IMG/VR virus record: IMGVR_UViG_3300042261_002269
Span: 1 to 64,000 of that record
DNA: 64,000 nt
Direction: 5' to 3' (one strand)
From: a virus
Shown: positions 3,001-46,609 of the stretch, one piece after another
How positions within the stretch are numbered: the first letter of the stretch is position 1
How the letters are laid out: each line of letters starts with the position of its first letter
Made by a program: the position numbers and the translations under genes
Notes under the pieces: generated by a model
The model's input: only the letters and a program-made list of their open reading frames with translations
The model's database searches: none
What the model was told of the DNA's origin: nothing

Positions 3001-6000
3001 CTCCAAGTGTCAGCCCAAGTATTTCTCCAAGTGTCAGTCCAAGTGTCAGTCCAAGTCTAAGTCCTAGCGTTTCTCCAAGTATTAGTCCAAGTATTTCTCC
3101 AAGTGTCAGTCCAAGTCTAAGTCCTAGTGCTAGTATTAGTCCAAGTATCAGTCCTTCAATTTCTCCAAGTATTAGTCCGAGTGTTTCTCCAAGTGTTAGC
3201 CCCAGTATTTCTCCGAGCATTAGTCCAAGTCTAAGTCCTAGTGCTAGTGTCAGTCCAAGTGTGAGTCCAAGTGTTAGTCCAAGTGTTTCTCCGAGTATTA
3301 GTCCAAGCATTAGTCCTTCAATTTCTCCAAGTATTAGCCCTAGTTTAAGCCCAAGTGCAAGTGTTAGCCCAAGTGTTAGCCCAAGTATTAGTCCAAGTGT
3401 CAGTCCGAGTATTTCTCCAAGTGTTAGCCCAAGTATTAGTCCAAGTGTCAGTCCAAGTCTAAGTCCTAGCGTTTCTCCAAGTGCAAGTCCAAGTGTTTCT
3501 CCAAGTATCAGTCCGAGCTTAAGCCCGAGTGCCAGTGTCAGTCCGAGCTTAAGTCCTAGTGCTAGTGTCAGTCCAAGTCTAAGTCCTAGCGTTTCTCCAA
3601 GTGCAAGTCCAAGTGTTTCTCCAAGTATCAGTCCGAGCTTAAGCCCGAGTGCCAGTGTCAGTCCGAGCTTAAGTCCTAGTGCTAGTGTCAGTCCAAGTAT
3701 CAGTCCTAGCGTTTCTCCAAGTGTTAGCCCAAGTGTTTCTCCAAGTGCAAGTCCGAGCTTAAGCCCGAGTGCCAGTGTCAGTCCAAGTATTAGCCCTTCA
3801 ATTTCTCCAAGTGTTAGCCCAAGTGTTTCTCCAAGTGCAAGTCCAAGTGTTTCTCCAAGTGCAAGTCCAAGCTTAAGCCCAAGTGCCAGTATTTCTCCAA
3901 GTATCAGTCCGAGTATTTCTCCAAGTATCAGTCCGAGTATTTCTCCAAGTATTAGTCCAAGCTTGAGCCCAAGTATCTCTCCCAGTTTAAGTCCAAGTGC
4001 CAGTATTAGTCCAAGTATCAGTCCGAGTATCAGTCCAAGTATTAGTCCGAGCGTTTCTCCAAGTGTTAGCCCAAGTGTTTCTCCAAGTGCAAGTCCGAGC
4101 TTAAGCCCGAGTGCCAGTGTCAGCCCAAGTATCAGTCCTAGCATTAGTCCTTCTGTAAGTCCGAGTCTGAGTCCGAGTCTGAGTCCGAGTCTGAGTCCAA
4201 GTATTTCTCCAAGCCTAAGTCCTAGTGCAAGTGTTAGCCCCTCTGTAAGCCCTTCGGTTTCTCCGAGCATCAGTCCGAGCATTTCTCCAAGCGTAAGTCC
4301 CAGTGCTAGTGTTAGTCCGAGTTTAAGTCCCAGTGCTAGTATTTCTCCAAGTATTAGTCCAAGTATTTCTCCGAGTGTCAGTCCAAGTATTTCTCCGAGT
4401 GTCAGTCCATCAGTAAGTCCGAGTATTTCTCCAAGTATTAGCCCAAGTATTTCTCCAAGTGTCAGTCCATCAGTAAGTCCGAGTATTTCTCCAAGTGTCA
4501 GTCCATCAGTAAGTCCCAGCATTAGTCCAAGCTTAAGCCCAAGTGCTAGTGTCAGTCCATCAGTAAGTCCGAGTATTTCTCCAAGTGTCAGTCCGTCAGT
4601 AAGTCCCAGCATTAGTCCAAGCTTAAGCCCAAGTGCTAGTGTCAGTCCATCAGTAAGTCCGAGTACTTCGCCAAGTGTTAGTCCTTCTGTAAGTCCTAGC
4701 ATTAGTCCTTCTGTAAGTCCAAGTATTTCTCCAAGTGTTAGTCCTTCTGTAAGCCCAAGTATTTCTCCAAGTGTTAGTCCTTCTGTAAGTCCAAGTATTT
4801 CTCCAAGTGTTAGTCCTTCTGTAAGTCCTTCTGTAAGCCCTTCTGTAAGTCCAAGTATTTCTCCAAGCTTAAGTCCAAGTATTTCTCCGAGCTTAAGCCC
4901 AAGTGCTAGCGTTAGTCCATCTGTAAGCCCAAGCTTAAGCCCAAGTGTTTCTCCAAGTATTAGTCCTTCTATCAGTCCAAGCTTAAGTCCATCAGTAAGC
5001 CCAAGTGTTTCTCCAAGTATTAGTCCTTCTATCAGTCCAAGCTTAAGCCCAAGCTTAAGCCCAAGTGTTTCTCCAAGTATTAGTCCTTCTATCAGTCCAA
5101 GCTTAAGTCCATCAGTAAGCCCAAGTGTTTCTCCGAGTATTAGTCCTTCTATCAGTCCAAGCCTAAGTCCAAGTGCTAGCGTTAGTCCAAGCTTAAGTCC
5201 GAGTGCTAGTGTTAGCCCTTCTGTTAGTCCCAGCAAATCACCGTCATTAAGTCCCAGTTTAAGTCCTAGTGTTAGCCCAAGTATCAGTCCAAGTATCAGT
5301 CCGAGTTTAAGCCCCAGTTTAAGCCCGAGTGCCAGTATTAGTCCAAGTATCAGTCCAAGTATCTCTCCCAGTTTAAGCCCAAGTGCAAGTGTCAGCCCAA
5401 GCTTCAGTGCAAGTATTAGTCCAAGCTTAAGCCCAAGTGCAAGCATTAGTCCTAGTACTAGTCCGAGTTTAAGTGCAAGTATTAGTCCAAGCTTAAGCCC
5501 ATCAGCTAGCGTAAGTCCGAGTATCAGCCCAAGTGCAAGTCCATCGGCAGGGCCAGCATTTGGAGAAGGTGGCGTTAAAGTCGGTGGTGTTGCAGAAGTT
5601 TTATTTAAGAACTTCAAACATATTGTTTCAGGACAAGTAGTAATTGGCGGTTCTAGCGAATGTCAAGCATATTATTGCGGCAAATTCGTTGTAGGATCGA
5701 TTGTATATTCAAAGAGCGATGCTGAGCGTGGCGGATTTGAAAAGATCGTCATCAAAAAAGTCACAATTATTTTTGATAATGTAGATGGAAGAAATTGCAC
5801 CGCATTTTACACAGATACATTAAATGCAATGTGGAATGAAGATGAACTAATTACTTACGAACAAGCAGCAATATTGGTCAACAACTATCTAACCTATTCA
5901 ATAATAAACGGTAACATTAATTATGTGAGTTTAGGCGAAGTAATGATTAGTGGCTCCAGTCAATTCCAGTTGCGTGTTACAAACAAATTCCCTGCAAGAT

Positions 6001-6173
6001 CCATCGCTTATTCAAAGGCAGATGCTGAACGTGGCGGATTTGAAAAAGTTTGCATCAAAAAAGTACAAAATGTGAAAGGCACTGTGATTTATACAGATAC
6101 ATTGAACGTAAGATGGAAAGAAAGTGAACTAGTCACTTATGCAGAAGCAGCAGTTCTAGTAGCTAACTCCTAG
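1..6173 (+). CDS. Giant Ser-Pro-Ser-x repeat fibre/adhesin-like protein (5' partial)
   Basis: The reading frame is open from base 3, so the gene begins before the window; the TTG at 765 is internal. About 1,845 visible residues are SPSx repeats (x mostly V, I, L or A, rarely K), recurrently interrupted by an SAS(V/I)S step that shifts the 4-residue phase by two. From about 5540 the protein changes to a non-repetitive end holding two related domains (about 5551-5885 and 5929-6170). Both carry a YSK(S/A)DAERGGFEK motif, then YTDTLN and a Trp-Glu-(L)-xTY stretch ending in AAxLV. Such low-complexity Ser/Pro stalks suit a long fibre or surface adhesin with a C-terminal binding module, but the family is not one I can name. 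The stop TAG lies inside a CTAG shared with the convergent gene's stop. Confidence 0.75.
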   Translation, partial: PSVSPSKSPSVSPSLSPSLSPSISPSLSPSASVSPSVSPSVSPSKSPSVSPSLSPSLSPSISPSLSPSASVSPSVSPSVSPSKSPSLSPSISPSISPSISPSLSPSASVSPSVSPSVSPSKSPSLSPSISPSISPSISPSLSPSASVSPSVSPSVSPSKSPSLSPSISPSISPSISPSLSPSASVSPSVSPSVSPSKSPSLSPSISPSVSPSISPSLSPSASVSPSVSPSKSPSLSPSISPSVSPSVSPSISPSLSPSASVSPSVSPSISPSLSPSVSPSASPSISPSLSPSLSPSASISPSISPSISPSISPSISPSKSPSLSPSLSPSLSPSASISPSISPSISPSLSPSASISPSQSPSVSPSKSPSVSPSVSPSVSPSISPSVSPSVSPSISPSLSPSASVSPSVSPSISPSISPSVSPSISPSLSPSASVSPSLSPSLSPSVSPSVSPSKSPSLSPSISPSLSPSASISPSVSPSISPSLSPSASISPSVSPSVSPSKSPSLSPSVSPSISPSVSPSLSPSASVSPSVSPSISPSISPSVSPSISPSISPSISPSLSPSASVSPSVSPSLSPSLSPSISPSISPSISPSVSPSISPSLSPSVSPSLSPSASISPSISPSLSPSVSPSLSPSASISPSISPSLSPSVSPSKSPSLSPSISPSISPSVSPSLSPSASVSPSVSPSISPSISPSLSPSVSPSKSPSLSPSISPSISPSVSPSLSPSASVSPSVSPSISPSISPSISPSLSPSVSPSISPSLSPSASVSPSVSPSISPSISPSISPSISPSLSPSASISPSVSPSISPSVSPSISPSISPSLSPSASISPSVSPSISPSISPSVSPSISPSISPSVSPSISPSVSPSISPSISPSISPSLSPSASVSPSISPSLSPSVSPSISPSISPSISPSISPSVSPSVSPSISPSISPSLSPSLSPSASVSPSVSPSLSPSVSPSISPSISPSLSPSASISPSISPSISPSVSPSISPSISPSVSPSVSPSISPSVSPSVSPSLSPSVSPSISPSISPSVSPSLSPSASISPSISPSISPSISPSVSPSVSPSISPSISPSLSPSASVSPSVSPSVSPSVSPSISPSISPSISPSISPSLSPSASVSPSVSPSISPSVSPSISPSVSPSISPSVSPSLSPSVSPSASPSVSPSISPSLSPSASVSPSLSPSASVSPSLSPSVSPSASPSVSPSISPSLSPSASVSPSLSPSASVSPSISPSVSPSVSPSVSPSASPSLSPSASVSPSISPSISPSVSPSVSPSASPSVSPSASPSLSPSASISPSISPSISPSISPSISPSISPSLSPSISPSLSPSASISPSISPSISPSISPSVSPSVSPSVSPSASPSLSPSASVSPSISPSISPSVSPSLSPSLSPSLSPSISPSLSPSASVSPSVSPSVSPSISPSISPSVSPSASVSPSLSPSASISPSISPSISPSVSPSISPSVSPSVSPSISPSISPSISPSVSPSVSPSISPSVSPSVSPSISPSLSPSASVSPSVSPSISPSVSPSVSPSISPSLSPSASVSPSVSPSTSPSVSPSVSPSISPSVSPSISPSVSPSVSPSISPSVSPSVSPSISPSVSPSVSPSVSPSVSPSISPSLSPSISPSLSPSASVSPSVSPSLSPSVSPSISPSISPSLSPSVSPSVSPSISPSISPSLSPSLSPSVSPSISPSISPSLSPSVSPSVSPSISPSISPSLSPSASVSPSLSPSASVSPSVSPSKSPSLSPSLSPSVSPSISPSISPSLSPSLSPSASISPSISPSISPSLSPSASVSPSFSASISPSLSPSASISPSTSPSLSASISPSLSPSASVSPSISPSASPSAGPAFGEGGVKVGGVAEVLFKNFKHIVSGQVVIGGSSECQAYYCGKFVVGSIVYSKSDAERGGFEKIVIKKVTIIFDNVDGRNCTAFYTDTLNAMWNEDELITYEQAAILVNNYLTYSIINGNINYVSLGEVMISGSSQFQLRVTNKFPARSIAYSKADAERGGFEKVCIKKVQNVKGTVIYTDTLNVRWKESELVTYAEAAVLVANS
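9..692 (+). repeat. 114-bp higher-order tandem repeat in the SPS gene
   Basis: The start of a Val-Ser-Pro-Ser-Lys segment (gtta...agcaaatca) recurs at 9, 123, 237, 351, 465 and 579, always 114 bp apart (38 codons: nine SPSx units plus one two-residue step). Copies are nearly identical in DNA, with blocks 237-578 the most uniform. The last unit decays near 690. This suggests recent amplification by recombination or slippage. Confidence 0.85.
3481..3720 (+). repeat. 120-bp tandem duplication in the SPS gene
   Basis: Bases 3481-3600 and 3601-3720 are almost identical; the first 60 bp of each copy match exactly, and the second halves differ by a few bases near 3577 and 3697. The repeat is 40 codons long, so the frame is kept. 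Confidence 0.85.
4921..5160 (+). repeat. 60-bp tandem repeat, four copies, in the SPS gene
   Basis: Four successive 60-base blocks (4921, 4981, 5041, 5101) share the same last 40 bases apart from one substitution near 5135. Their first 20 bases alternate between two versions, so the real unit may be a 120-bp pair. Each block encodes five SPSx units. Confidence 0.85.
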
Positions 6174-6544
6174 TCTTTTCGACAATTAGCACACAATGTC
6201 ATAATCCAGTATTTACCTTTATTTGGCCTGCTTTCTACAGACTGGTTTGATCCACAAAATTCACAGGTTTGCACAGACAATCTTTCTGCTTTATCGATTA
6301 ATTCATCGATTGTTTTATTGGAATTTGCTACATAAAAGCGAAGCTCTCCAAATTTTTGTTTAACCTGTAATACGGTAAATTCTTTTGGCGGATTGGCGGC
6401 TTGAATATCCAAACAAAGCTGTCGAATTAAATTATACCATCCATCATCACACTCAAATTCGAAAGACAAAAATTCATTAGGATGGTAACCTGGGAAAAAA
6501 GCAGGAAATTCTTGAGCTAATTTTGATTGAAGTTTGGTATTCAT
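6170..6544 (-). CDS. Small zinc-ribbon phage protein, unknown function
   Basis: This 124-residue protein has a conserved-looking middle (FECDDGWYNLIRQLC, then QVKQKFGELRFYV) and a C-terminal zinc-ribbon pattern CEFCG...CANC. I recognise the general layout from hypothetical proteins of many tailed phages, but it has no established function. The ATG at 6544 has no clear Shine-Dalgarno; an AT-rich TATTTATAGTAT lies directly before it. Its stop overlaps the stop of the SPS gene in a shared CTAG, so the two genes converge with no room for a terminator. Confidence 0.7.
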   Translation of the reverse strand: MNTKLQSKLAQEFPAFFPGYHPNEFLSFEFECDDGWYNLIRQLCLDIQAANPPKEFTVLQVKQKFGELRFYVANSNKTIDELIDKAERLSVQTCEFCGSNQSVESRPNKGKYWIMTLCANCRKD

Positions 6545-24803: not shown

Positions 24804-26360
24804 ATGGCATATGAAAGTTGTCCTTTTGACGTAACTCCTTATGACGAAGCCAATTTGGTCAAATCTCCCAAATTGATAAATTTGAATTATACGAATCAAG
24901 ACTTTTGGTCAATGAAGTCACGTTTAATTGGTTATATCAAGGAACAGTTTGGAGATTCATTTAATGATTTTGTAGAATCTGATTTAGCCTTAATGTTAAT
25001 TGAAAATTGGGCATTTATAGCAGATACATTGTCGTTTAAGATGGATCAGATTGCCAATGAGGTATTTATTGATACAGTCGGAGAGGTAGATAACGCATTT
25101 CGATTGAGCAAATTGGTCGGATTTAATCCTCAGCCTCCAATTGCCGCCAGATCTTTGTGGTCGGCAAATATAGCGACCTCTTTAGAAACGGACATGGTTA
25201 TACCCACGCCACAAGCTATTGAAGTCACTACAGAATATGGGCCTAAAACCATTGAATTGTTTGCCGCAGATCCTTCCAATGCTCCGATTTATAATGAATC
25301 AATTATTATTCCAGCGGGCAGTTTTATTACAACTAGTGTTGTAGGTCTAGAAGGAAGAACATATGTTCAACAGACTTTCGGAAACGGATCACTAAATCAA
25401 TATGTACAACTGGTAAATTCTCCAGTAATTTCCAACTCCATACGAGTACAGGTAAATGGCTTAGAGTGGGATAAGGTAGATTATTTTACAGATTCTCAGC
25501 CCAGAAAAGAGTTTAGGGTTGAATATGATCCAAATTATGCAGCTTACGTTATATTTGGCAATAATCGTGCTGGCTTAATTCCTCCTGATGGAGCAGAAAT
25601 ATCTATTACTTATCGAGTTGGCGGTGGAGTCGCAGGAAATATTGTTACTGGAAGTGTCGAAATTCAAAGGAATTTTGCTGTTCCAGGTTTGGGATATCGT
25701 CTTCCTGTGGCTTTTCGCAACTATACTCGTGGTGAATATGGTTATGCTGGCGATACAATTACAGATATTAAGCGAAAATTACCAGCTTGGTTAAGGCTAC
25801 AAAATCGTATTGTGACTGGAACAGATTATGAAACTTTTGCCAGTCAATTTATTACCGATTATCATGGGCAAGTCGGCAAGGCGAATGCTGTATTGAGACA
25901 ATTTGGATGTGCAGCAAATGTAATCGACCTATATATATTAGCATTAGATGGCGACAATGGTTTAATTTCTGCTTCTAATGAGCTTAAAGTAGATTTAAGA
26001 GATGCTGTCAATAATATAAAAATGATATCTGATCTAATATGTATAAAAGATGGCGTGGTAATAGAAACAGATGTTACTATAGATGTCACTATAGACAAGT
26101 TTTATCGTAAATTTGAGGATGAGCTTAGAGGGAAAATAGACACTAGAATCAGTAATTTCTTTTCTCTAAGTAATTGGGATTATGGTAAAACTTTAAAAGC
26201 AGTTGATTTGATCAAAGAGATTTCAGATATTAAAGAAATTAGGACCGTAGATGTCGATTTCCAGACGATCAATGAGAACAATTCCGGCACAATCGTAACG
26301 GCTCGTTTCTTTGAAATAATAAGACCTTCTACTATTTTAACTAATTTTGTGTATGAATAA
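24804..26360 (+). CDS. Baseplate wedge protein, gp6/J-like
   Basis: A 518-residue protein of the baseplate J/gp6 family: N-terminal helices (DLALMLIENWAFIADTLSFK, then IANEVFIDT), a long beta-rich centre with GSFITTSVVG and GGGVAGNIVTGSVE, then RLQNRIVTGTDYETFA and a C-terminal ferredoxin-like part (VTIDVTIDKFYRKFEDELR). It forms the ring of wedges around the hub. Its stop overlaps the next start by one base (TAATG). Confidence 0.85.
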   Translation: MAYESCPFDVTPYDEANLVKSPKLINLNYTNQDFWSMKSRLIGYIKEQFGDSFNDFVESDLALMLIENWAFIADTLSFKMDQIANEVFIDTVGEVDNAFRLSKLVGFNPQPPIAARSLWSANIATSLETDMVIPTPQAIEVTTEYGPKTIELFAADPSNAPIYNESIIIPAGSFITTSVVGLEGRTYVQQTFGNGSLNQYVQLVNSPVISNSIRVQVNGLEWDKVDYFTDSQPRKEFRVEYDPNYAAYVIFGNNRAGLIPPDGAEISITYRVGGGVAGNIVTGSVEIQRNFAVPGLGYRLPVAFRNYTRGEYGYAGDTITDIKRKLPAWLRLQNRIVTGTDYETFASQFITDYHGQVGKANAVLRQFGCAANVIDLYILALDGDNGLISASNELKVDLRDAVNNIKMISDLICIKDGVVIETDVTIDVTIDKFYRKFEDELRGKIDTRISNFFSLSNWDYGKTLKAVDLIKEISDIKEIRTVDVDFQTINENNSGTIVTARFFEIIRPSTILTNFVYE

Positions 26361-35380: not shown

Positions 35381-37237
35381 ATGGCATTTATTCCAGTACC
35401 AAGATATCCTCAAGCAATTGATTCAGATTACACTTTGTATTTGGTTCATAACACAACCGAAGCACAAATTGCTGTAGATAATTCTGCTTGGTCACAAGAA
35501 ATCGAAATAGTTCCTGTGGCTGCTGATGAAAACGAAATATGGCCCGACAACGGTTTTGCCAATATTGATGGCGAATTGTTGTATTATGATGCAGTTGGCA
35601 AAGATGTTAACGGAAAAGTCTACAAACTAAGAAGATGTTCTAGACAGTTAAGCGGAACCACAAAATTCAACAACAAAGGTACATGGATCAGAGGTTTTGT
35701 GGTAGCAGAACATCACAATCAATTAGTAAATGCCATTATCAAAACAGAGAATTTTATTGGCTATAATTACGACACAAGACAAGAAACTTTAGATTGGAGA
35801 ATTCGTAATTTAGCCTCACTACAATCAATTTATGATGATTATAACTGTCCTGATGTAATTTTTGATTTTAATTTAGTAGAAAACGACCCTGAAACAGGCA
35901 TCCTTTATAGTTATTCGGTAAAAATTACTGATCCAGGTAATGTTGAGTCATTCAGATTGGATTTTGGAGATGGACAATATACTACGACAGAATTAGAGGG
36001 TTTTCACAGATATGCCGTCAATACTAAAATTGACCCTGTAATCACAATTTCAAATGGATTGTGTGAAACTGTACAAACAGCCATTGAAAGAACAGATCCA
36101 AATCAGCCCGAAACAGAAACCCGACCTATTTTTGACGTTCCGGTTCCAGAAATTCCTGATATTCCAGATTTTACATTTGTTCCATGTAGTGTTCCAGAAG
36201 CAGATATTAGCTTGCCTCCTTTGGTTTTTCCCTGTATTTCCCTTGCAGGACAATTAGTAAACATTCCTTCTATTATTTCAGGCCCATATATCAATATGGT
36301 TAGTCATGTGGTGATTGAAGGACCAAATGAGCCTGTACAAATACTGCACAGTCAGGTGACTATTACTGGAGATGGCATTAACATTCCATCAATAATTTTC
36401 GTAGATATGCCGAATACAATTGTCATAGATCCACCAATTCCTCCGACAATTGTTCTTGTTCCTCCTGCATCTGTACTTTCTTTAGAGCTTGATGCCTCAA
36501 ATTTACCTCGACTAGAAGTAGATTGGGGAGCCCCTCCGCCAATGGAAGTTGCTCTTACATTAGCTAAAAATGTAAGCAATCCTCAACGTCTTGTAGCAGA
36601 TCCAGAAATTGTTAAAGAATTTGGGACAGAATTTGCAGATTTGTTTGAGGCATCAGATTCATTAAAAGTAGAATATGAGAGTGTAGGAATTCCTGAAGAG
36701 ATCAGAATTATTCCTCCTGAATTTCCTTCTATTAAAATAGAAAGCAATCTGCCTCAGAAGATTAAAATTGATTCTTCAGATGTTCAAATGCCTGACAAAA
36801 TTAAGATTTATGGTCCAGATAGCCCTATTCCCAATTCAATTCGCTTAGAAGGATATGAAATACCAGATACAATTGATTTGGTTTATAGTGGGAGTGCTAT
36901 ACCTATTGATACTTCTCAAGTTCCTAAAGAAATTAAACTTGTTATGGAAAAGGACATTCCTAATCACATTGTGGTAGAGATGCCTGTTCCTATTCCAAGT
37001 ACCATTAGCATTGAGCACACAATTCCAGAGAAAATTATATTAGAAGGACCACAATCGATTCCTTTATCATTGCCAGATAACTTCGCTTTACCTGTTGTTT
37101 TTCCTGACAAGATGCCAGAAGTTGAATTGGTATGGCGAGGCAGTCCTATAGAAGTCAAAATTACCATGGATGAAATACTAAGCAAAGACGCAGCAGGACA
37201 AAAATGCGTGGTAATTTCTCCGTGTCCTACAGGTTAA
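35381..37237 (+). CDS. Tail fibre protein 3 with PKD-like domain and Pro/Ile repeat end
   Basis: A 618-residue protein from the ATG at 35381 (AGGTG upstream; a GTG 9 bases earlier is in frame). It shares the N-terminal module (VVAEHHNQLVNAIIKTENF) and has one degenerate PKD-like unit (FRLDFGDGQYTT). The rest, from about residue 250, is built of short irregular strands each marked by Pro and Ile (for example IPSIISGP, PEKIILEGP, PNSIRLEG), which looks like a repetitive beta structure. Third of three paralogues. Confidence 0.7.
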   Translation: MAFIPVPRYPQAIDSDYTLYLVHNTTEAQIAVDNSAWSQEIEIVPVAADENEIWPDNGFANIDGELLYYDAVGKDVNGKVYKLRRCSRQLSGTTKFNNKGTWIRGFVVAEHHNQLVNAIIKTENFIGYNYDTRQETLDWRIRNLASLQSIYDDYNCPDVIFDFNLVENDPETGILYSYSVKITDPGNVESFRLDFGDGQYTTTELEGFHRYAVNTKIDPVITISNGLCETVQTAIERTDPNQPETETRPIFDVPVPEIPDIPDFTFVPCSVPEADISLPPLVFPCISLAGQLVNIPSIISGPYINMVSHVVIEGPNEPVQILHSQVTITGDGINIPSIIFVDMPNTIVIDPPIPPTIVLVPPASVLSLELDASNLPRLEVDWGAPPPMEVALTLAKNVSNPQRLVADPEIVKEFGTEFADLFEASDSLKVEYESVGIPEEIRIIPPEFPSIKIESNLPQKIKIDSSDVQMPDKIKIYGPDSPIPNSIRLEGYEIPDTIDLVYSGSAIPIDTSQVPKEIKLVMEKDIPNHIVVEMPVPIPSTISIEHTIPEKIILEGPQSIPLSLPDNFALPVVFPDKMPEVELVWRGSPIEVKITMDEILSKDAAGQKCVVISPCPTG

Positions 37238-37239
37238 AT

Positions 37240-38085
37240 ATGTACATAAAAAAAGACCGTTTTACCAAAAATGAATATATTTTTGCTGGAGATATTTGGG
37301 TCCGCAATTTCTTAAAGCCCAGTACAACTTCAGTAATTTTAAATAATTTGTATCGTCAAGATGATTATCATATTGTGATGTTGAATGAAATTAAAAACGC
37401 TAATTTTTCAGACATCTTAAAAGAAAAAATCAATTTCAGTAAAATCGTAATCGTCTCTGATGGTTTTGCTTTTGCCTCTAGACACAAATTGATTGCTCAA
37501 TTTCCTAAAGATGTGGCAGTTTTTGCAGTTAACAAGGTGCTTAAGGAGTGGAAATTACATACAGATCCTACTAATCCAAGATCTATTAATGCTTATATTG
37601 TGAACAATCCATATCCTGAATGTGCTTCTTATTTGCCAATAGAAACAAAATATTATCCAGCTTGTGTAGCATCTAGAAGGACGAACTATAATTTCTTACA
37701 AAAATATCAAGGCACTATTTACACTTACAACCCAACTTGTGACTATGAATTTGGAAACAATACTGATGAGGGACACGTTGACGATTATCGCAATCCAATT
37801 TGTGCCGCAATTGATTTGAGCTATCGTTTTGGCGTTGAAAAATTAATGTTGCTTTGTTGCGATGATTCGTTTAAAATCAAAAAGGATGCATCGGTTCTTT
37901 TAGAGAATGGGTTATACACATATCCGCAGCATTTAAGAGCCCAAGAAATTGTGGATGCAAAGTTGTATTGGCTAACACAACAAGAAAATAAAAGCATAAA
38001 AATTTGTGATTTTTCTGAAGGAGCAAAATATAATAACGCTTTGTGTATACATAATAATGAAGAGGCAATAGAATTTTTTAAATAA
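37240..38085 (+). CDS. DUF115/motility-accessory-factor-like protein
   Basis: A 281-residue protein; the ATG at 37240 has AGGTT upstream and avoids the long overlap of the ATG at 37204. The sequence KIVIVSDGFAFASRHKLI, then NNPYPECASYLP and LMLLCCDDSF, resembles DUF115/6-hydroxymethylpterin-pyrophosphokinase-like proteins that act in surface glycosylation. The assignment is tentative. It directly follows the fibre genes, which suits a role in fibre modification. Confidence 0.45.
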   Translation: MYIKKDRFTKNEYIFAGDIWVRNFLKPSTTSVILNNLYRQDDYHIVMLNEIKNANFSDILKEKINFSKIVIVSDGFAFASRHKLIAQFPKDVAVFAVNKVLKEWKLHTDPTNPRSINAYIVNNPYPECASYLPIETKYYPACVASRRTNYNFLQKYQGTIYTYNPTCDYEFGNNTDEGHVDDYRNPICAAIDLSYRFGVEKLMLLCCDDSFKIKKDASVLLENGLYTYPQHLRAQEIVDAKLYWLTQQENKSIKICDFSEGAKYNNALCIHNNEEAIEFFK

Positions 38086-38677: not shown

Positions 38678-38892
38678 TGATGTACAAATTGCAACAATAC
38701 GAAGCTATCAAAGCATTAGATGCATTATGTGACAAAAACAATCTAAAGCTAGAAAACATCATAGAAATGCCAATAGAGAATTTAATTACAGCCATTGAGT
38801 CTTTGAATTTGTTGCCTACCAAAGCATGGTCTCTGCCTCGTTTTGCAGCAATGGTTAAATCAATGGCTTTTATTGAGCTAGGAAGACATTAA
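38677..38892 (+). CDS. Small protein with SLPRF C-terminal motif
   Basis: A 71-residue helical protein translationally coupled to the previous gene (TAATG; a second ATG follows at once). It ends with WSLPRFAAMVKSMAF, similar to the end of the 38091 product. Its end overlaps the convergent glycosyltransferase gene by 15 bases. Function unknown. Confidence 0.5.
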   Translation: MMYKLQQYEAIKALDALCDKNNLKLENIIEMPIENLITAIESLNLLPTKAWSLPRFAAMVKSMAFIELGRH

Positions 38893-39747
38893 GTTCATTA
38901 AGTCATCATCAGGATTGATAGCAGATCTAATTCCGATGCACATATCGATAATTGTCTTAAATGCTGCATACCAATTATCTCTTTGTTTTAGTCTTATTAT
39001 AACGGCACTATGATACCAATTTCCAACATCCCAGCGAGGATCATGCTCAAAGTTCAAAATTCCATAAGTAAGCTTATTTAAAGCTCCTGCAAGATGCAAT
39101 ACTGCCGTATCTACACTAATAACCATGTCCATAGCATTAATTAACTTGGCAGTATCGTAGAAATCTTCTAGTTCAGTCCCGAACAATTCAAAATCATCAC
39201 AGTCGTTTAATAATTGAGGGATTAGAATTTGTTTTTGAAGAGAATAAAAACGAATATAAGGACATGCTAGCATTCTAAAATAATTTAAAGGACAATTTTT
39301 TTGATTGTCTGCTCCGCTTTCCCAACAAATTCCTATATTTTTAACATTGTCAATCTTATCAATTTCATGTTTTTCTGGCACAACAAGATACGGAAATTTT
39401 ATTCCATCATGAAGTTGTTGAAGGGCAAAAGGCAAACTGAAGGATAAAATATGGAAGTCATGGGGTGGTAATTCTAAAGTTTCCTTATCAATAAGCTCCA
39501 CGTTCAAACAAGCAAACAATCTATGCAATTCTTTGGGACAGGCAAACAATATTTTACAGCCTTTAGACTGAAGAATTGGAATATATCGAGAAAATTGTAT
39601 GATATCTCCAAATCCTTGCTCTCCATAGACAATTACTGTTTTCCCATTTAAAGATCCTTGATCTGGAGTCCATCGTTTGCTATTTCGGTATGCAAACTTA
39701 TAAAATTCCATTTTTTCGTTGTTTAAACGATCTAAGCATTCATTCAT
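38878..39747 (-). CDS. GT9-type glycosyltransferase
   Basis: A 289-residue protein. It has the family 9 (ADP-heptose transferase-like, GT-B) marks: YGEQGFGDIIQFSRYIPIL near the N-terminus, a second-domain start NIGICWESG, and MDMVISVDTAVLHLAGAL near the C-terminus, the nucleotide-sugar site. It is shorter than bacterial heptosyltransferases. The ATG overlaps the stop of the upstream minus-strand gene (ATGA), and GAGG precedes it. Likely transfers a sugar to phage or host surface molecules. Confidence 0.7.
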   Translation of the reverse strand: MNECLDRLNNEKMEFYKFAYRNSKRWTPDQGSLNGKTVIVYGEQGFGDIIQFSRYIPILQSKGCKILFACPKELHRLFACLNVELIDKETLELPPHDFHILSFSLPFALQQLHDGIKFPYLVVPEKHEIDKIDNVKNIGICWESGADNQKNCPLNYFRMLACPYIRFYSLQKQILIPQLLNDCDDFELFGTELEDFYDTAKLINAMDMVISVDTAVLHLAGALNKLTYGILNFEHDPRWDVGNWYHSAVIIRLKQRDNWYAAFKTIIDMCIGIRSAINPDDDLMNLMSS

Positions 39748-40873: not shown

Positions 40874-41464
40874 ATGTCAGTATTTAGAGTAAAATTACAG
40901 AATGTAAAGCAGGGTCTATTGGATCTTGATCCGACCACAGACACATCAACCACGTATGGTGCATTGGGCACGCCTTTCACTGCATCAAAGCAGCGTCAGA
41001 TTTTCGTAGCTGGCCCGAATCGCAGTTATCGTCTTTTGGTTGATGGTGCTACATTTACGGACTGCAACTATTGGAAACGATTTGCATATCCACAGGTAGC
41101 ACAAGAAGCAGCTTTCATCGAAGTAGTTACGGATGATGGCAGTGTATACAGTGATATTCCAGAAGAGAATACTTTCGCTGCTGGTGCAACTGAGACATTG
41201 ACGACAGATTACGCTGACACAGTAGTTGATTTCGTAACGACCTACGGTGGTCCCGCTCGATTCTTACAGGTCCAGAACTTGGATGCTACTCAAACGGTTT
41301 CGGGTGAATTGAATGCAGATACGGATGTTACATTTACATTGAAAGCTGGCGAGACTCAGATTTTCAATCAGGGCGACTTAGCAATTACTTATTTGCGACT
41401 AAAGTCAACCGCAGCTTCAGACGCAAGTTGGATTGCAGCCATTCGCTCAGTCCCAACTAGCTGA
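40874..41464 (+). CDS. Putative abundant virion structural protein
   Basis: A 196-residue beta-rich protein (VQNLDATQTVSGELNADTDV, then FTLKAGETQIFNQGDLAI) with no membrane segment or enzyme motif. ACAGGAG precedes the ATG. Its codons are noticeably more GC-rich than its neighbours, and a strong UUCG terminator follows 34 bases after the stop; both suggest high expression. The fold pattern would suit a capsid decoration or minor capsid protein. No precise family is recognised. Confidence 0.6.
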   Translation: MSVFRVKLQNVKQGLLDLDPTTDTSTTYGALGTPFTASKQRQIFVAGPNRSYRLLVDGATFTDCNYWKRFAYPQVAQEAAFIEVVTDDGSVYSDIPEENTFAAGATETLTTDYADTVVDFVTTYGGPARFLQVQNLDATQTVSGELNADTDVTFTLKAGETQIFNQGDLAITYLRLKSTAASDASWIAAIRSVPTS

Positions 41465-41483
41465 TAACATGGTTAGATCGATA

Positions 41484-41529
41484 CCAGATTAGTCTGGAAA
41501 AAAGGGTCACTTCGGTGGCCCTTTTTTTA
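41484..41529 (+). terminator. Rho-independent terminator with UUCG tetraloop
   Basis: The stem AGGGTCAC / GTGGCCCT (41503-41510 and 41515-41522, one U-G pair) closes a TTCG loop at 41511-41514 and is followed by seven T residues (41522-41528). A smaller hairpin, CCAGA-TTAG-TCTGG, precedes it at 41484-41497. Confidence 0.9.
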
Positions 41530-41549
41530 TTTAATTACTTTATTATTGA

Positions 41550-42509
41550 ATGCCCATAATCACTCAACCAAATCGCCATCCTAAGAAAAAACAATTAAAT
41601 ATCAAAGAATTCCAAGAGATTAAGAATAAACTTTTAATTATACGTAATGTGGGGGGTTTGGGGGATATTTTAATGCACAGGATGTTATTTGAGGATTTTA
41701 AGAAATTATGTCCTGAAATTGAAATTCATTTTGCATGTCCCAAATATTACCATTCGGCTGTTGAAGATCATCCTTTTGTCGATAAGATTTTAACCATAGA
41801 AGAGATTGATCGCAGAAAGTATTTAATGTCATACAACACTTCTACCATTTGCGGTCGTTATGAAATGAAATATGCTCCATTTTGCGACAAGCATCGCAGT
41901 GATATTTGGGCAGAACATTGCGGGTTGACATTAACTGAACACAATATGCACATTCATCTTTCAGAAGTTGAGAAAATAGAAGGGAAGTACATATTAGAAA
42001 AAAAAAGAGATCGTCCAGGAAAAATTGTTATTTTGTCGCCCATATCCGCAATGTTAAATAAAAATTTGACTGAAGAGCAGATCATGGGGTTAGTTTATAA
42101 TTTGCGTCAAAAGGGATATTGTGTAATCGGACTACATAATACTGTAATTCCATGTATGTTGGCAAATGACATACCAACAATTTTCGACATTAATTTGCGA
42201 CAGTGGTTAGCAGTAATTCATGAAAGCGATTATGTGATTAGTGTAGACACTGCTACATTTCATGCTGCTGGAGGCATGAAAAAACCATTGGTGGGCATAT
42301 TTACTTTTGTAGACGGAATTACTTATGGAAAATATTTTGATTTCTTTTTAGTACAAAAACACAGAAATCTTGACACAAACTGGGAATGTGGCCCATGTTA
42401 TGAATGGGGAAAATGCGTCAAGACGCTAAATACTCCTAAGCCTTGTGTAACAAATATTACAGTGGAGATGATATTAGAAAAAACAGAAGAGATGTTTAAA
42501 AGGTGGTGA
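41550..42509 (+). CDS. GT9-type glycosyltransferase
   Basis: A 319-residue protein with the family 9 marks: LIIRNVGGLGDILMHRMLF at the N-terminus and ESDYVISVDTATFHAAGGM near residue 230, then a C-terminal Cys cluster (WECGPCYEWGKC). It is the second GT9-type gene here, flanking the abundant structural gene together with the one at 38878. It starts just after the terminator, so it needs its own promoter; no Shine-Dalgarno is visible. Confidence 0.75.
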   Translation: MPIITQPNRHPKKKQLNIKEFQEIKNKLLIIRNVGGLGDILMHRMLFEDFKKLCPEIEIHFACPKYYHSAVEDHPFVDKILTIEEIDRRKYLMSYNTSTICGRYEMKYAPFCDKHRSDIWAEHCGLTLTEHNMHIHLSEVEKIEGKYILEKKRDRPGKIVILSPISAMLNKNLTEEQIMGLVYNLRQKGYCVIGLHNTVIPCMLANDIPTIFDINLRQWLAVIHESDYVISVDTATFHAAGGMKKPLVGIFTFVDGITYGKYFDFFLVQKHRNLDTNWECGPCYEWGKCVKTLNTPKPCVTNITVEMILEKTEEMFKRW

Positions 42510-42510
42510 T

Positions 42511-42732
42511 ATGCCGCAACTTATTCAAAAAGGTCCAACAAAAATCAAAATTGTACCTAGAGATGGGGAATTAGAAATAACTTTAAACATTAATATAACC
42601 GTTGACGGACAGATAAATGCATCTTCAAATGAAGCAGATGTTACTACATTAAAAGAAGAAAAACATATAGAAAGAACAGATCATGTCATACCTGATTTTA
42701 CATCAGGTATGAAGTTGAATTTTGGCAAATAA
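42511..42732 (+). CDS. Small beta-rich hypothetical protein
   Basis: A 73-residue protein starting one base after the glycosyltransferase stop, with AAGGTGGTG before its ATG. It has alternating strands (TKIKIVPRDGELEITLNINI). Function unknown; it precedes the actin-like gene by 13 bases, so they are probably co-transcribed. Confidence 0.5.
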   Translation: MPQLIQKGPTKIKIVPRDGELEITLNINITVDGQINASSNEADVTTLKEEKHIERTDHVIPDFTSGMKLNFGK

Positions 42733-42745
42733 TTTGGAGGATTTT

Positions 42746-43762
42746 ATGAGTTGTGGATTTGACGCAGGTACTTATAATATCGTTACTTGCAAACGAAACG
42801 AAAAAGGCGATTTAGTTTATAAAAGAGAAGTCAATGCATTCTTAGAAATGCCTCTGGAGAACGAATTTGTTTTCAATATGATGAAAAAATCTGGCGTTCC
42901 TCTTATTTTACGAGAAGATGCCAAAATCGCTTATGCATTAGGCGAAGCTGCTGTAAACATTGCTTACACCATGAGTCAGATTTCGCTTCGTAGACCTATG
43001 CAAGATGGCTGTGTCAATCCCAAGGAAAAAGACGCATTTCAGATCATGAACATTATGATGCACAGCTTATTGGACAATATTGATCATGATAAGGAAATTA
43101 TGTATTACAGTGTGCCTGCTAATGCAGTTAATCAAGAAACGGATGCAGATTATCACCGTAAAATACTCGATGCTATTTTTAAAGCTTATAAGTCCGAACA
43201 AGGCTACACAGTCGATGCTCGTCCAATTAATGAAGGAATGGCAGTTGTGTATTCTGAACTCGCCAACAAATATTGGACAGGTCTTGGCGTAAGTTGCGGT
43301 AGTGGCATGGTCAATGTAGCATTTGCTTTGTATGGCGTAGAAGTATTCAGTTTTTCTCTTGTAAACTCAGGAGATTGGATTGATAAACAAGCTGCCAAGG
43401 CTACTGGAGAAAGTATTGCCTTTATTAACAAAGAAAAACACAAAATTAATTTGACCAAACCACCAACAACATTAGTAGAAAGAGCAATTCGTACTCAATA
43501 TGAATTGATGATTGAGAGAACAGTAGCTGGAATTAAAAAAGGTTTGATGGAAAATGAGGAAAAGATAAGAAGATTAGACAATCCAATTGATGTTATTGTG
43601 GCCGGTGGAAGTGCAAGTCCTCCTGGTTTTGATGCATTATTTAAGAATCTGTTACTTAATGCACAAATTCCAGTTAATTTCGGAGAAATTATCAGGCCAG
43701 ATGATCCTTTGTATTGTGTAAGCCGTGGATGTTTAATTGCCGCAGAGAATGCAACTAAGTAA
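42746..43762 (+). CDS. Actin-like ATPase (ParM/MreB/Hsp70 superfamily)
   Basis: A 338-residue protein; the ATG at 42746 has TTGGAGG before it (a TTG start 24 bases earlier is less likely). The actin-fold nucleotide motifs appear in order: phosphate-1 DAGTYN (6-11), connect-like INEGMAVVYS (161-170), phosphate-2 SCGSGMVNV (183-191) and adenosine motif VIVAGGSASPPG (283-294). The length is close to ParM-type filament proteins. It might form a cytoskeletal filament that positions phage DNA, or be a non-polymerising ATPase. It lies next to the 73-residue gene, a possible partner. Confidence 0.75.
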   Translation: MSCGFDAGTYNIVTCKRNEKGDLVYKREVNAFLEMPLENEFVFNMMKKSGVPLILREDAKIAYALGEAAVNIAYTMSQISLRRPMQDGCVNPKEKDAFQIMNIMMHSLLDNIDHDKEIMYYSVPANAVNQETDADYHRKILDAIFKAYKSEQGYTVDARPINEGMAVVYSELANKYWTGLGVSCGSGMVNVAFALYGVEVFSFSLVNSGDWIDKQAAKATGESIAFINKEKHKINLTKPPTTLVERAIRTQYELMIERTVAGIKKGLMENEEKIRRLDNPIDVIVAGGSASPPGFDALFKNLLLNAQIPVNFGEIIRPDDPLYCVSRGCLIAAENATK

Positions 43763-43778
43763 CAAGAAAGGGGAAGAA

Positions 43779-44264
43779 ATGACAGAATGTATTCATAAGT
43801 TCGTAAATGATTTAGGGGTAGCTGCCTATGTTCTAATGCATGGTTATATTGTAATTGGCAAAAGAGGCAGATCGATTTATTTTGAATGTTCAGACGAGCA
43901 AGAAGCTAAAGAATTTGATCGTTTGGTGCTGGAATACCAACCACCAAACGAGTTTTACACCTTCGATTCTTGTTTGATGTTTTTGAAAAAAATCAACGAA
44001 TTTGATCCAGGAATTACTGATGAGAGGCGTTGCAAAACTGTTGCCGACTTAGGTGTTGCCGCCTATCTTTTAATGAAAGAATATTCAGATAAAGCTCTTG
44101 GAGTAAAAGTTATTGGTAAAAAAGGAAAATATGTTCATTTTGAATATCCAGAAGGCAAAGGAGCAGAGTTTGACCGTATTTGCTACCAATATTTACCAAG
44201 CCCTTTTCAAACCTACGATTCTAATTTAATGGCATTAAAGAAAATTGGTGAATATATGCCTTAG
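43779..44264 (+). CDS. Tandem-duplicated small-domain protein (DUF5659-like)
   Basis: A 161-residue protein; AAGGGG precedes the ATG at 43779. Two copies of one domain of about 70 residues lie end to end: DLGVAAYVLMHGYIVIGKRG...FYTFDSCLMFLKKI and DLGVAAYLLMKEYSDKALGVKVIGKKG...FQTYDSNLMALKKI. The pattern (variable residue, membrane-free helix, then IGK(R/K)G and a Phe-Glu strand) resembles DUF5659. Function unknown. Confidence 0.65.
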   Translation: MTECIHKFVNDLGVAAYVLMHGYIVIGKRGRSIYFECSDEQEAKEFDRLVLEYQPPNEFYTFDSCLMFLKKINEFDPGITDERRCKTVADLGVAAYLLMKEYSDKALGVKVIGKKGKYVHFEYPEGKGAEFDRICYQYLPSPFQTYDSNLMALKKIGEYMP

Positions 44265-44311
44265 AAATGAAATAATCTTGGACTATATATTTTAAATCAC
44301 CAAGAGGAAAT

Positions 44312-46609
44312 ATGTATAGTTTTTCAGAATACAGAAGAAATCAAATTGTCGATTCCATTCCAAAACTTTCGCTAAAAGAAAGCATAGAACAGTATTGTGA
44401 AGTATTAAGATTAACTGTTTTAGAAGTTGTTAAATTACCAGAATCAATGTTTGATGGTATTGTTTCTGAAGCACATTACTTAAATTTTCGAAAACAAGAT
44501 TATGAATTTAACAAATATTGGATAAACAATTTTATTCAGGAATACAAAGATGAGCTAATTAAAGAAGCTACGGCAGGCGTGGATTTAAAAGATATCTCAG
44601 ATCTAATTGATAAATTAGAATCAGATGTCAAACAAATCATCAGTTTATCTAGAAGTGATACGCCTGTAAGCAGTGACATAAGTAGCGATAAGTCCGCAAG
44701 TGTTCCAGGGCCTCAACCTATCCGTGGAAGCAAATTGCCATCTGGCAGCACAAGCCAGGGAGCCGCAGATGTTTCCTCAGAACCTGCAACAGAACCGGCA
44801 GCAGAGCCAACAGTTGCACCAACAGCAAAACCAGCAGTCAAGCCAACTGAAGGGCCTTCAAAACGATATCCTAGATGGTCAGATTTTAAAGGTCAATCTA
44901 GACCAAAAGCAGGAGATTTCCAGCCAGCAAAATATGGAGATAAATTACCTTCTGACGGCATCAGAGGCGGTTTGAGTCGCATGTTTCGTAGAGCCACCAG
45001 ACCCATTCGTCGTATATGGCATGGCGATCCGACTAGAGAACAAGCTGAAATTCTTGAAAATGTATTTTCAGAGAACACTTCTAATATCAGTGATATTTTT
45101 GCTGTCTTTAAGAAGCAATTAATTGATTTGATTAAATCTAAAATTGCACAAACAGAAGTTGGTCCTAAATCTGATTCAGCACCTTTGGCTCAGAATATGA
45201 AAATAGTTGGAGACGAACAAGAGGTAAGCGACGACAATGCCATGAGTAACACTCAAGGCCGAAAGGTATCGACTTTGCCAGACAACAGGACTTTCCAAAA
45301 TAGAGCCGAAGACATATTAAAAGGAATCAAGGTTCTTGGATTTAAGGTTCCTGAATATGATGCCAAGGTAAGTCGATATCCAGTGATTAAGCCAGAAGAT
45401 ATTGTTCCAAATAGCAAAAACTTTTCTTTCAGACAGATCAATGCTATTTGCAAGAGAATACTCAAGTTGTTTTTGAAGTTAAATATATTGCATGACGAAA
45501 ACGGCAAAATTAAAGAACATTTTCAAATTTTGTTTTATAAGGGCAAATTGAAAAATAAGGTCATAAGATTTTTGTCTCCTGCCATTTCTAAAGCAGAATA
45601 TGTATTAGAAATTATTCATGCTATTAATGTTGAGTTAGACATGCAATATGCAGAGGCAATCAATAAAAAGTACCTTTATCATTTATTAGAGGCTATTGGT
45701 AAACGATTCGGAAATATTGAAATTCCCGATTTAGATTTTGTGCCAGAAACACCAGAATCGGCAGAATCGGCAGAATCAGATGCCGAAATCAATAATGCTT
45801 TATCAAAAGATGCCAAAAAAGAAACTAAGCCTAAAGATATGAAAGCCAGAGTCAAAGACATTAAGACCAAAAATTCTTCAGAAGGCATGTCTATTGAAGA
45901 ATATGAGAAAGAGGTGCTTAAAAAATTCAAAGAACTTTCAAAAGGTTCAAGTGCTAACAGTTTAGATTTATTAGTTGATAGCTTTAAAATAAACCAAATG
46001 TATTTTGAAAAACTCTTAAATACATTTGCTCAATTCTCAACTGAATCTGAAATGAGAGAAGTTTTAAAGAAGCATTACGAAGAAAAAGACGTTGAAAAGA
46101 TAACCAATAAATTCATTAAACAATTAGCTAAGAAATTAGAAACGCCAGAAGCTAAGGCAGAACCGCCAAAGGCAGAAGAACCACCGGCCAAAGCAGCAGA
46201 GCCAAAGGTAGAAGAACCACCGGCCAAAGCAGCAGAGCCAAAGGTAGAAGAACCACCGGCCAAAGCAGCAGAGCCAAAGGTAGAAGAACCACCGGCCAAA
46301 GCAGAGCCAAAGGCAGAAGAGCCACCAGCTAAGGCAGAGCCGCCAAAGGCAGAAGAGCCACCAAAGGCAGAAGAGCCACCAAAGGCAGAGCCACCAGCTA
46401 AGGCTAAAACTAGCATAACACCAAAAAGCGAAGAGAAGCCTAAGGTAAATCCGCCAAAAGATACAAAATCAGAAGAGAAGCCTAAGGTAAATCCGCCAAA
46501 AGATACAAAATCAGAAGGCAAACCTAAGGCAACACCTCCAAAGAACGTAGAACCATCAAATGATGATGATAACGATGAAGAAGAGGAAGATACAGGAAGT
46601 CCTTGGTAA
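44312..46609 (+). CDS. Large protein with aromatic leader and Lys/Glu/Pro repeat tail
   Basis: A 765-residue protein. It begins MYSFSEYRRNQIVDS (aromatic leader) with a possible protease-type site at LSLKES. There follow a helical region, a Pro/Ala/Ser-rich linker (150-200), a basic segment (FRRATRPIRRIWHG), helices, and from about residue 610 a repetitive tail of PPAKAEPK/EEPP units ending in an acidic DDDDNDEEEE stretch. I recognise no family. It may be a virion-internal or scaffold-type protein. Its stop abuts the convergent gene's stop. Confidence 0.6.
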   Translation: MYSFSEYRRNQIVDSIPKLSLKESIEQYCEVLRLTVLEVVKLPESMFDGIVSEAHYLNFRKQDYEFNKYWINNFIQEYKDELIKEATAGVDLKDISDLIDKLESDVKQIISLSRSDTPVSSDISSDKSASVPGPQPIRGSKLPSGSTSQGAADVSSEPATEPAAEPTVAPTAKPAVKPTEGPSKRYPRWSDFKGQSRPKAGDFQPAKYGDKLPSDGIRGGLSRMFRRATRPIRRIWHGDPTREQAEILENVFSENTSNISDIFAVFKKQLIDLIKSKIAQTEVGPKSDSAPLAQNMKIVGDEQEVSDDNAMSNTQGRKVSTLPDNRTFQNRAEDILKGIKVLGFKVPEYDAKVSRYPVIKPEDIVPNSKNFSFRQINAICKRILKLFLKLNILHDENGKIKEHFQILFYKGKLKNKVIRFLSPAISKAEYVLEIIHAINVELDMQYAEAINKKYLYHLLEAIGKRFGNIEIPDLDFVPETPESAESAESDAEINNALSKDAKKETKPKDMKARVKDIKTKNSSEGMSIEEYEKEVLKKFKELSKGSSANSLDLLVDSFKINQMYFEKLLNTFAQFSTESEMREVLKKHYEEKDVEKITNKFIKQLAKKLETPEAKAEPPKAEEPPAKAAEPKVEEPPAKAAEPKVEEPPAKAAEPKVEEPPAKAEPKAEEPPAKAEPPKAEEPPKAEEPPKAEPPAKAKTSITPKSEEKPKVNPPKDTKSEEKPKVNPPKDTKSEGKPKATPPKNVEPSNDDDNDEEEEDTGSPW
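46187..46294 (+). repeat. 36-bp in-frame tandem repeat
   Basis: Three copies start at 46187, 46223 and 46259 and encode AKAAEPKVEEPP. The copies are nearly identical in DNA and lie inside the Lys/Glu/Pro tail. Confidence 0.85.
46430..46513 (+). repeat. 42-bp in-frame tandem repeat
   Basis: Two matching copies start at 46430 and 46472, encoding EEKPKVNPPKDTKS; a third, diverged copy follows at 46514. Confidence 0.8.

Follow-up and report, generated by a model that had tools for sequence, protein, structure and literature searches.

Actin homologues of phages are known mainly from scattered phages and prophages and are of the ParM/AlpC sort, and the literature on jumbo phages centres on the tubulin PhuZ. 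PF25216 is a haloarchaeal actin family, that of volactin (VolA, HVO_2015) of Haloferax, which assembles in vivo into dynamic filaments resembling those of ParM (PMC10869688). Filaments are also made in vivo by Mad28, the second actin of deep-branching magnetotactic bacteria, in which the DxGxG of the phosphate-2 motif has become SxGxG, and in vitro this protein polymerises with ATP-gamma-S (PMC10653835).

No phage actin homologue figures in the ‘actin’ passages of three overviews of jumbo or huge phages, which describe tubulins (PMC7162821, PMC7824862, PMC13282480), within an open-licence literature outside which earlier notice is possible; volactin is not mentioned in the Mad28 papers (PMC10653835 included), nor are phages in the Mad28 papers other than PMC10653835 or in the volactin paper (PMC10869688). 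What is new in the locus described in the following is that phages have a branch of the volactin family to themselves, accompanied by a small gene of its own; this kind of actin has so far been known mainly from archaea and, apparently, from magnetotactic bacteria.

The phage locus

The window, the whole stretch of 64,000 nucleotides that was analysed, belongs to a virus record of 190,199 bases with three tRNA genes. The phage is contractile-tailed and has genes for a tail sheath, a baseplate wedge protein (24804-26360), a portal, the large terminase subunit and a DNA primase. The features around the actin gene are:

40874-41464, plus strand: conserved 196-residue protein of unknown function, anchor of the presence test (61 anchored loci)
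41497-41528, plus strand: strong hairpin resembling an intrinsic terminator (14-pair stem, 4-nt loop, T run)
41550-42509, plus strand: GT9-like (heptosyltransferase-like) glycosyltransferase, first gene of a putative operon (PF01075, E 6.6e-5, just over the cut-off; TIGR02193 weak; syntenic in relatives)
42511-42732, plus strand: 73-residue protein, co-conserved partner candidate (79 of 93 loci, alignments, motif)
42736-42740, plus strand: Shine-Dalgarno GGAGG of the actin gene (sequence)
42746-43762, plus strand: predicted volactin-family actin-like ATPase, 338 residues (PF25216, AlphaFold2, Foldseek, core gene of the phage clade)
43779-44264, plus strand: 161-residue protein in which one domain occurs twice (direct repeat of 56 nt within the gene, spacing 258)

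The actin open reading frame, which the initial annotation had placed at 42746-43762 with 338 residues, is confirmed by its ATG at 42746, its stop codon at 43760-43762 after 338 codons, its match to PF25216 and its Shine-Dalgarno sequence, which is contained in the TTGGAGGATTTT that precedes the ATG; a longer version of the protein starting from the TTG at 42722 is less likely. The reading frame is far beyond chance, because it matches PF25216 with an E value of 3.9e-66, has 67 viral relatives and shows low dN/dS (0.016, 0.030 and 0.064 in the pairs of close relatives that are free of saturation), the gene being under purifying selection.

The description of the surroundings as a late/structural region was only roughly right: the baseplate genes are some 10-20 kb upstream of the actin gene and those for terminase and portal 13-19 kb downstream, but right beside it are genes for the GT9-like glycosyltransferase, for small proteins of unknown kind, for a primase and for an exonuclease. 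The hairpin at 41497-41528 parts the gene at 40874-41464 from those that follow and, since it lies before the GT9-like gene, this gene, the 73-residue gene, the actin gene and the gene at 43779-44264 look like one transcription unit. A homologue of the last is found downstream of the actin gene in nearly all relatives, and no confident family was assigned to its 161-residue product in Pfam, PHROGs or NCBIfam. No centromere-like tandem repeat array occurs within 41400-44400, and scans with Pfam, PHROGs or NCBIfam brought up no magnetosome gene families for the window proteins that they covered.

Also near the actin gene are a second GT9/heptosyltransferase-like gene on the minus strand (38878-39747), within 4 kb of that at 41550-42509 on the plus strand, and a weak MptE-like match at 37204-38085.

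Family membership and predicted fold

The match of the phage protein to the Volactin profile is full length (residues 1-333 against profile positions 1-321 of 321) and reaches 224.2 bits with a Pfam cut-off of 35, whereas the MreB profiles remain below their cut-offs (PF06723, MreB_Mbl, E 4.4e-5, 22.9 bits versus 27; NCBIfam MreB, 19.4 bits versus 293); no ParM-family match was obtained with Pfam or NCBIfam, and no confident family in PHROGs. As a control, the Volactin profile was run on the genomes of E. coli, T. maritima and Haloferax volcanii; all were matched, but a single match exceeded the cut-off and is taken to be that of H. volcanii, the home of volactin. By tblastn the volactins of Natrinema and Haloarcula are 33-36% identical (E 3e-55), and bacterial MreB proteins are found at E 0.01-0.04. 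Volactin and the phage protein are also equal in length and share the serine discussed below; they differ in that the latter is encoded by huge tailed phages, sits on a long stem in the tree and has a phage-specific 73-residue neighbour. A role in cell shape is established for volactin in Haloferax; for the phage protein it would be hypothetical.

Cellular relatives identified by a genome scan, nearly all 29-37% identical to the phage protein, come from Halobacteria, Archaeoglobaceae, Methanosarcinaceae and Thermoplasmata and, on the bacterial side, from metagenome-assembled genomes (MAGs) that represent Omnitrophota, Magnetococcales and a small number of other groups. Omnitrophota and Magnetococcales include magnetotactic bacteria and, because Mad28 has been described from Omnitrophota among others, the proteins from these MAGs, about 29-36% identical to the phage protein and with the same serine, are probably Mad28-like, the named Mad28s themselves being compared by description only. 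The phage protein is not called Mad28 because the window proteins scanned gave no sign of a magnetosome gene cluster such as the one in which Mad28 is encoded. One Omnitrophota MAG contig (L118) carries, as read from its sequence, two tandem volactin/Mad28-like genes (3986-6433) next to ParA-like and coiled-coil genes; the product of the second is extended by a long stretch at its N-terminus.

Two other assignments were rejected, namely (i) membership in the ParM/AlpC group, there being no family match and no centromere-like repeats, and (ii) kinship with the ‘mreB’ of Acinetobacter phage MD-2021a, as the stretch with mreBCD, gatABC and rng looks like a mislabelled bacterial chromosome. The record in question (CAKLQH020000002.1) and a sister record, both under that phage name, also hold cysH in this chromosome-like stretch.

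The AlphaFold2 monomer model of the phage protein, built from an alignment of 104 sequences, has a pLDDT of 91.9 and a pTM of 0.89. When it was compared with the PDB by Foldseek, MreB came first (E 3.9e-15), the MamK and BeeR filaments gave TM scores of 0.70 and 0.71, respectively, and ParM R1 one of 0.51; a library of viral structures contained no close match, only distant Hsp70 and unnamed proteins. PilM and EutJ, the non-polymerising ATPases with which the initial annotation had envisaged that the protein might instead group, come later, EutJ at rank 23 (TM 0.52, rmsd 8.4 A) and PilM not among the top 50 matches. Thus, the model resembles the filament-forming MreB, MamK and BeeR better than EutJ, and the identification of a phage-encoded actin-like protein is supported by the profile match, the predicted fold and these nearest structures. 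Beyond that identification, the protein belongs to the volactin family rather than to MreB, ParM or AlpC, has an altered phosphate-2 motif and is the product of a huge-phage core gene.

Active-site motifs and inteins

In an alignment of 104 phage, archaeal and bacterial relatives, D6, G8, T9, E163, S183, G185, G187, N190, D210, D213, G287, G288 and G328 are invariant, and the following motifs can be placed:

42761-42772, plus strand: phosphate-1 motif D6-A-G-T9 (D6, G8 and T9 invariant in the 104 sequences)
43232-43234, plus strand: connect-1 catalytic-type glutamate E163 (invariant in the 104 sequences)
43292-43315, plus strand: phosphate-2 motif S183-C-G-S-G-M-V-N190, Asp replaced by Ser (S183, G185, G187 and N190 invariant in the 104 sequences)
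43604-43609, plus strand: adenosine motif G287-G288 (invariant)

The nucleotide-binding motifs had all been reported to be present in order, which holds for phosphate-1, connect-1, adenosine and connect-2 (where G328 is present) but not for phosphate-2, in which S183 stands opposite the Asp in a profile alignment with MamK. MreB and MamK, the best matches among solved structures, share the fold and the order of the motifs with the phage protein, which departs from both in this Ser as well as in its scores below the Pfam and NCBIfam cut-offs, and from MamK also in a shorter IIB region in the profile alignment. The reported change of the phosphate-2 Asp in Mad28 is the same (PMC10653835). The Asp to Ser change may result in an altered turnover, and could mean loss of hydrolysis; it does not rule out polymerisation, because Mad28, with the same change, and volactin form filaments.

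At 10 loci on eight distinct contigs (L061, L066/L186, L067/L185, L075, L157, L163, L164 and L214) the actin gene is interrupted by an in-frame intein, in all cases between S183 and C184. These inteins are of 369-371 residues, start with Cys and end with His-Asn, and the two that were scanned gave LAGLIDADG, Hint and intein-splicing domain matches. Inteins tend toward functionally vital sites; therefore, their position is indirect evidence that the phosphate-2 loop is important to the phage. One of the intein-bearing contigs, RXKI01000042.1 (L075), has been binned as a Neisseriaceae MAG; given its intein-bearing actin gene and a gene order like that of the huge phages, it most likely derives from a phage.

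The small upstream gene

The 73-residue gene starts 1 nt past the GT9-like gene and stops 13 nt ahead of the actin gene. Alignment of its products reveals a short beta N-terminus, whose conserved strand pattern ends in an LNIN motif, then a linker that is acidic and variable, and at the C-terminus the motif P-D-F-x(6)-K-x-x-F-G-K, with a spacing of x(n) across the relatives. A motif search found the gene upstream of the actin gene, mostly 1-30 nt away, at 79 of 93 non-identical loci (control stretches, 1 of 490), and no second copy of the C-terminal PDF...FGK motif in the 190-kb contig. Thus, the gene is real and conserved. No DNA-binding family was recognised in the protein by Pfam or PHROGs, and its AlphaFold model is of low confidence (pLDDT 58.6), with a short beta portion and disorder being predicted.

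That this gene might encode a partner had been suggested from its position, a proposal strengthened by the co-conservation and by the conserved C-terminal motif. Because it is co-conserved with the actin and has a unique C-terminal motif, the 73-residue protein is the best adaptor candidate, gene order and co-conservation pointing to a putative contact with the actin; such a function is compatible with the small size and predominant disorder of the protein and with the conserved peptide at its tail.

Distribution and phylogeny

One scan with the actin protein yielded 67 IMG/VR loci, and the contigs that carry relatives include some of 459, 527, 533 and 595 kb. When presence was assessed with the unrelated neighbour gene at 40874-41464 as anchor, counting loci with more than 3.5 kb of downstream sequence, the actin gene was found at 60 of 61 anchored loci, and on the 61st contig about 8 kb further on, hence on 61 of 61 contigs. 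The gene is single copy in every phage record examined, and in the relatives it is flanked by genes in the same order throughout. It is, therefore, a single-copy core gene of a huge-phage clade. No tubulin was found in 14 phage records; for this result and for the copy number it has to be kept in mind that the records may be incomplete.

In the tree, all PF25216 sequences are parted from MreB by a very long branch, and the main phage clade forms one group within the volactin family (support 100/100) on a stem of about 1.9 changes per site, the long branches and the failure of rooting with MreB making its place and the root within the family unsure. Two more viral sequences, from LR745208.1 and one IMG/VR contig, sit beside Magnetococcales, away from the main phage clade, and one origin for all phage copies was rejected by the AU test (p 1.3e-5, to be taken with caution given the long branches).

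LR745208.1 (485 kb), L068 and L135 represent another viral lineage that has an actin of the volactin family; it is separate from the main phage clade and lacks the gene neighbourhood of the latter. L135 comes from a Thermoplasmatales MAG that also holds a second, typical volactin, and may be a viral contig within this bin.

Possible functions

In the favoured explanation, to which a probability of about 0.6 is assigned, the protein is a volactin-family actin that forms nucleotide-dependent filaments and positions phage cargo in the infected cell. As part of a Ser-type phosphate-2 branch of the family, which apparently also holds Mad28, it would bind ATP and, judging from volactin and Mad28, would polymerise to filaments with a slow or partner-controlled turnover. 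The resulting phage-made cytoskeleton would place replicating DNA, capsids or a replication zone, with the 73-residue product as a putative adaptor that would hold one partner through its N-terminal part and the other through its C-terminal PDF...FGK peptide. A role analogous to that of AlpC of prophage CGP3 is proposed (PMC4446434). PhuZ of the nucleus-forming jumbo phages is possibly analogous as well, being a cargo-positioning cytoskeleton of very large phages, from which the present system differs in its actin fold and in the lack of tubulin in the 14 records. Against the formation of filaments counts that EutJ, which is not known as a filament former, shares the fold. It is suggested only tentatively, at somewhat less than even odds, that this huge-phage clade, unlike the PhuZ jumbo phages, organises the cell interior by means of a Ser-type volactin actin and a 73-residue tail-peptide adaptor.

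The protein might act on the host and not on cargo, polymerising at or with the host cytoskeleton and changing cell shape or size, in the way that certain jumbo phages reshape the cells they infect, with the glycosyltransferase-like neighbours as part of the same envelope programme. The control of Haloferax cell shape by volactin (PMC10869688), the co-localisation and cross-interaction of Mad28 with MamK (PMC10653835) and the syntenic GT9-like and weakly MptE-like enzymes would agree with this explanation, which is nevertheless unlikely, given that none of the neighbours was recognised as MreC or RodZ and that the N-terminus of the actin is not obviously amphipathic.

A DNA partition system of the ParMRC/AlpAC type, in which the actin would segregate phage genomes in a plasmid-like or pseudolysogenic state with the 73-residue protein as a DNA-binding adaptor, is brought to mind by the ParM-like dynamics of volactin (PMC10869688) and by the small gene directly upstream, as compared with AlpA, the co-transcribed adaptor of AlpC (PMC4446434). 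Indeed, AlpC-AlpA of the Corynebacterium prophage CGP3 and the plasmid ParM-ParR couple are, like the present pair, phage- or plasmid-encoded with a small adjacent gene. However, the actin has no ParM-family match, the 73-residue protein, with its predicted short beta portion and disorder, matches no DNA-binding family, there are no tandem centromere-like repeats around the operon, and the phage is of another kind; partition is, on this evidence, distinctly improbable. More generally, no direct tie of the actin to DNA emerges, because neither a centromere-like array nor a DNA-binding partner was detected nearby.

Highly doubtful is a non-polymerising regulator or assembly chaperone, EutJ- or Hsp70-like, that opens and closes with nucleotide on one partner, possibly the 73-residue protein: EutJ and viral Hsp70 proteins have the same fold and the loss of the phosphate-2 Asp could mean a switch without turnover, but EutJ ranks behind MreB, MamK and BeeR, PilM is outside the top 50, and volactin (related by sequence) and Mad28 (by its Ser signature) are filament formers.

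If the tentative suggestion of a dedicated Ser-type volactin actin that works through the 73-residue adaptor holds, bacteria would be the site of a separate, widespread viral cytoskeleton, and the actins of archaea, magnetosomes and phages would share one ancestry. As a single-copy core gene of huge phages that come from many metagenome samples, the actin gene would point to a further viral cytoskeleton of wide occurrence. Volactin, the probable Mad28-like proteins and the phage proteins are linked in one branch with Ser at a usually conserved Asp position, so that the control of turnover in these actins becomes a directly testable question.

Other open reading frames of the record

Downstream of the actin gene, 44312-46609 encodes a protein of 765 residues in which repeats of the PAKAEPPKAEEP type form long runs toward the C-terminus. 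At the beginning of the window, two overlapping opposite-strand open reading frames (765-6173, plus strand, 1802 residues; 1076-5617, minus strand, 1513 residues) have a higher GC content (0.44-0.45). Elsewhere in the genome (169016-177625; 5016-13625 of the extracted piece L230) there are five successive minus-strand open reading frames of 565-583 residues, of which the two that were scanned gave no Pfam match, and which are possibly an array of paralogues.
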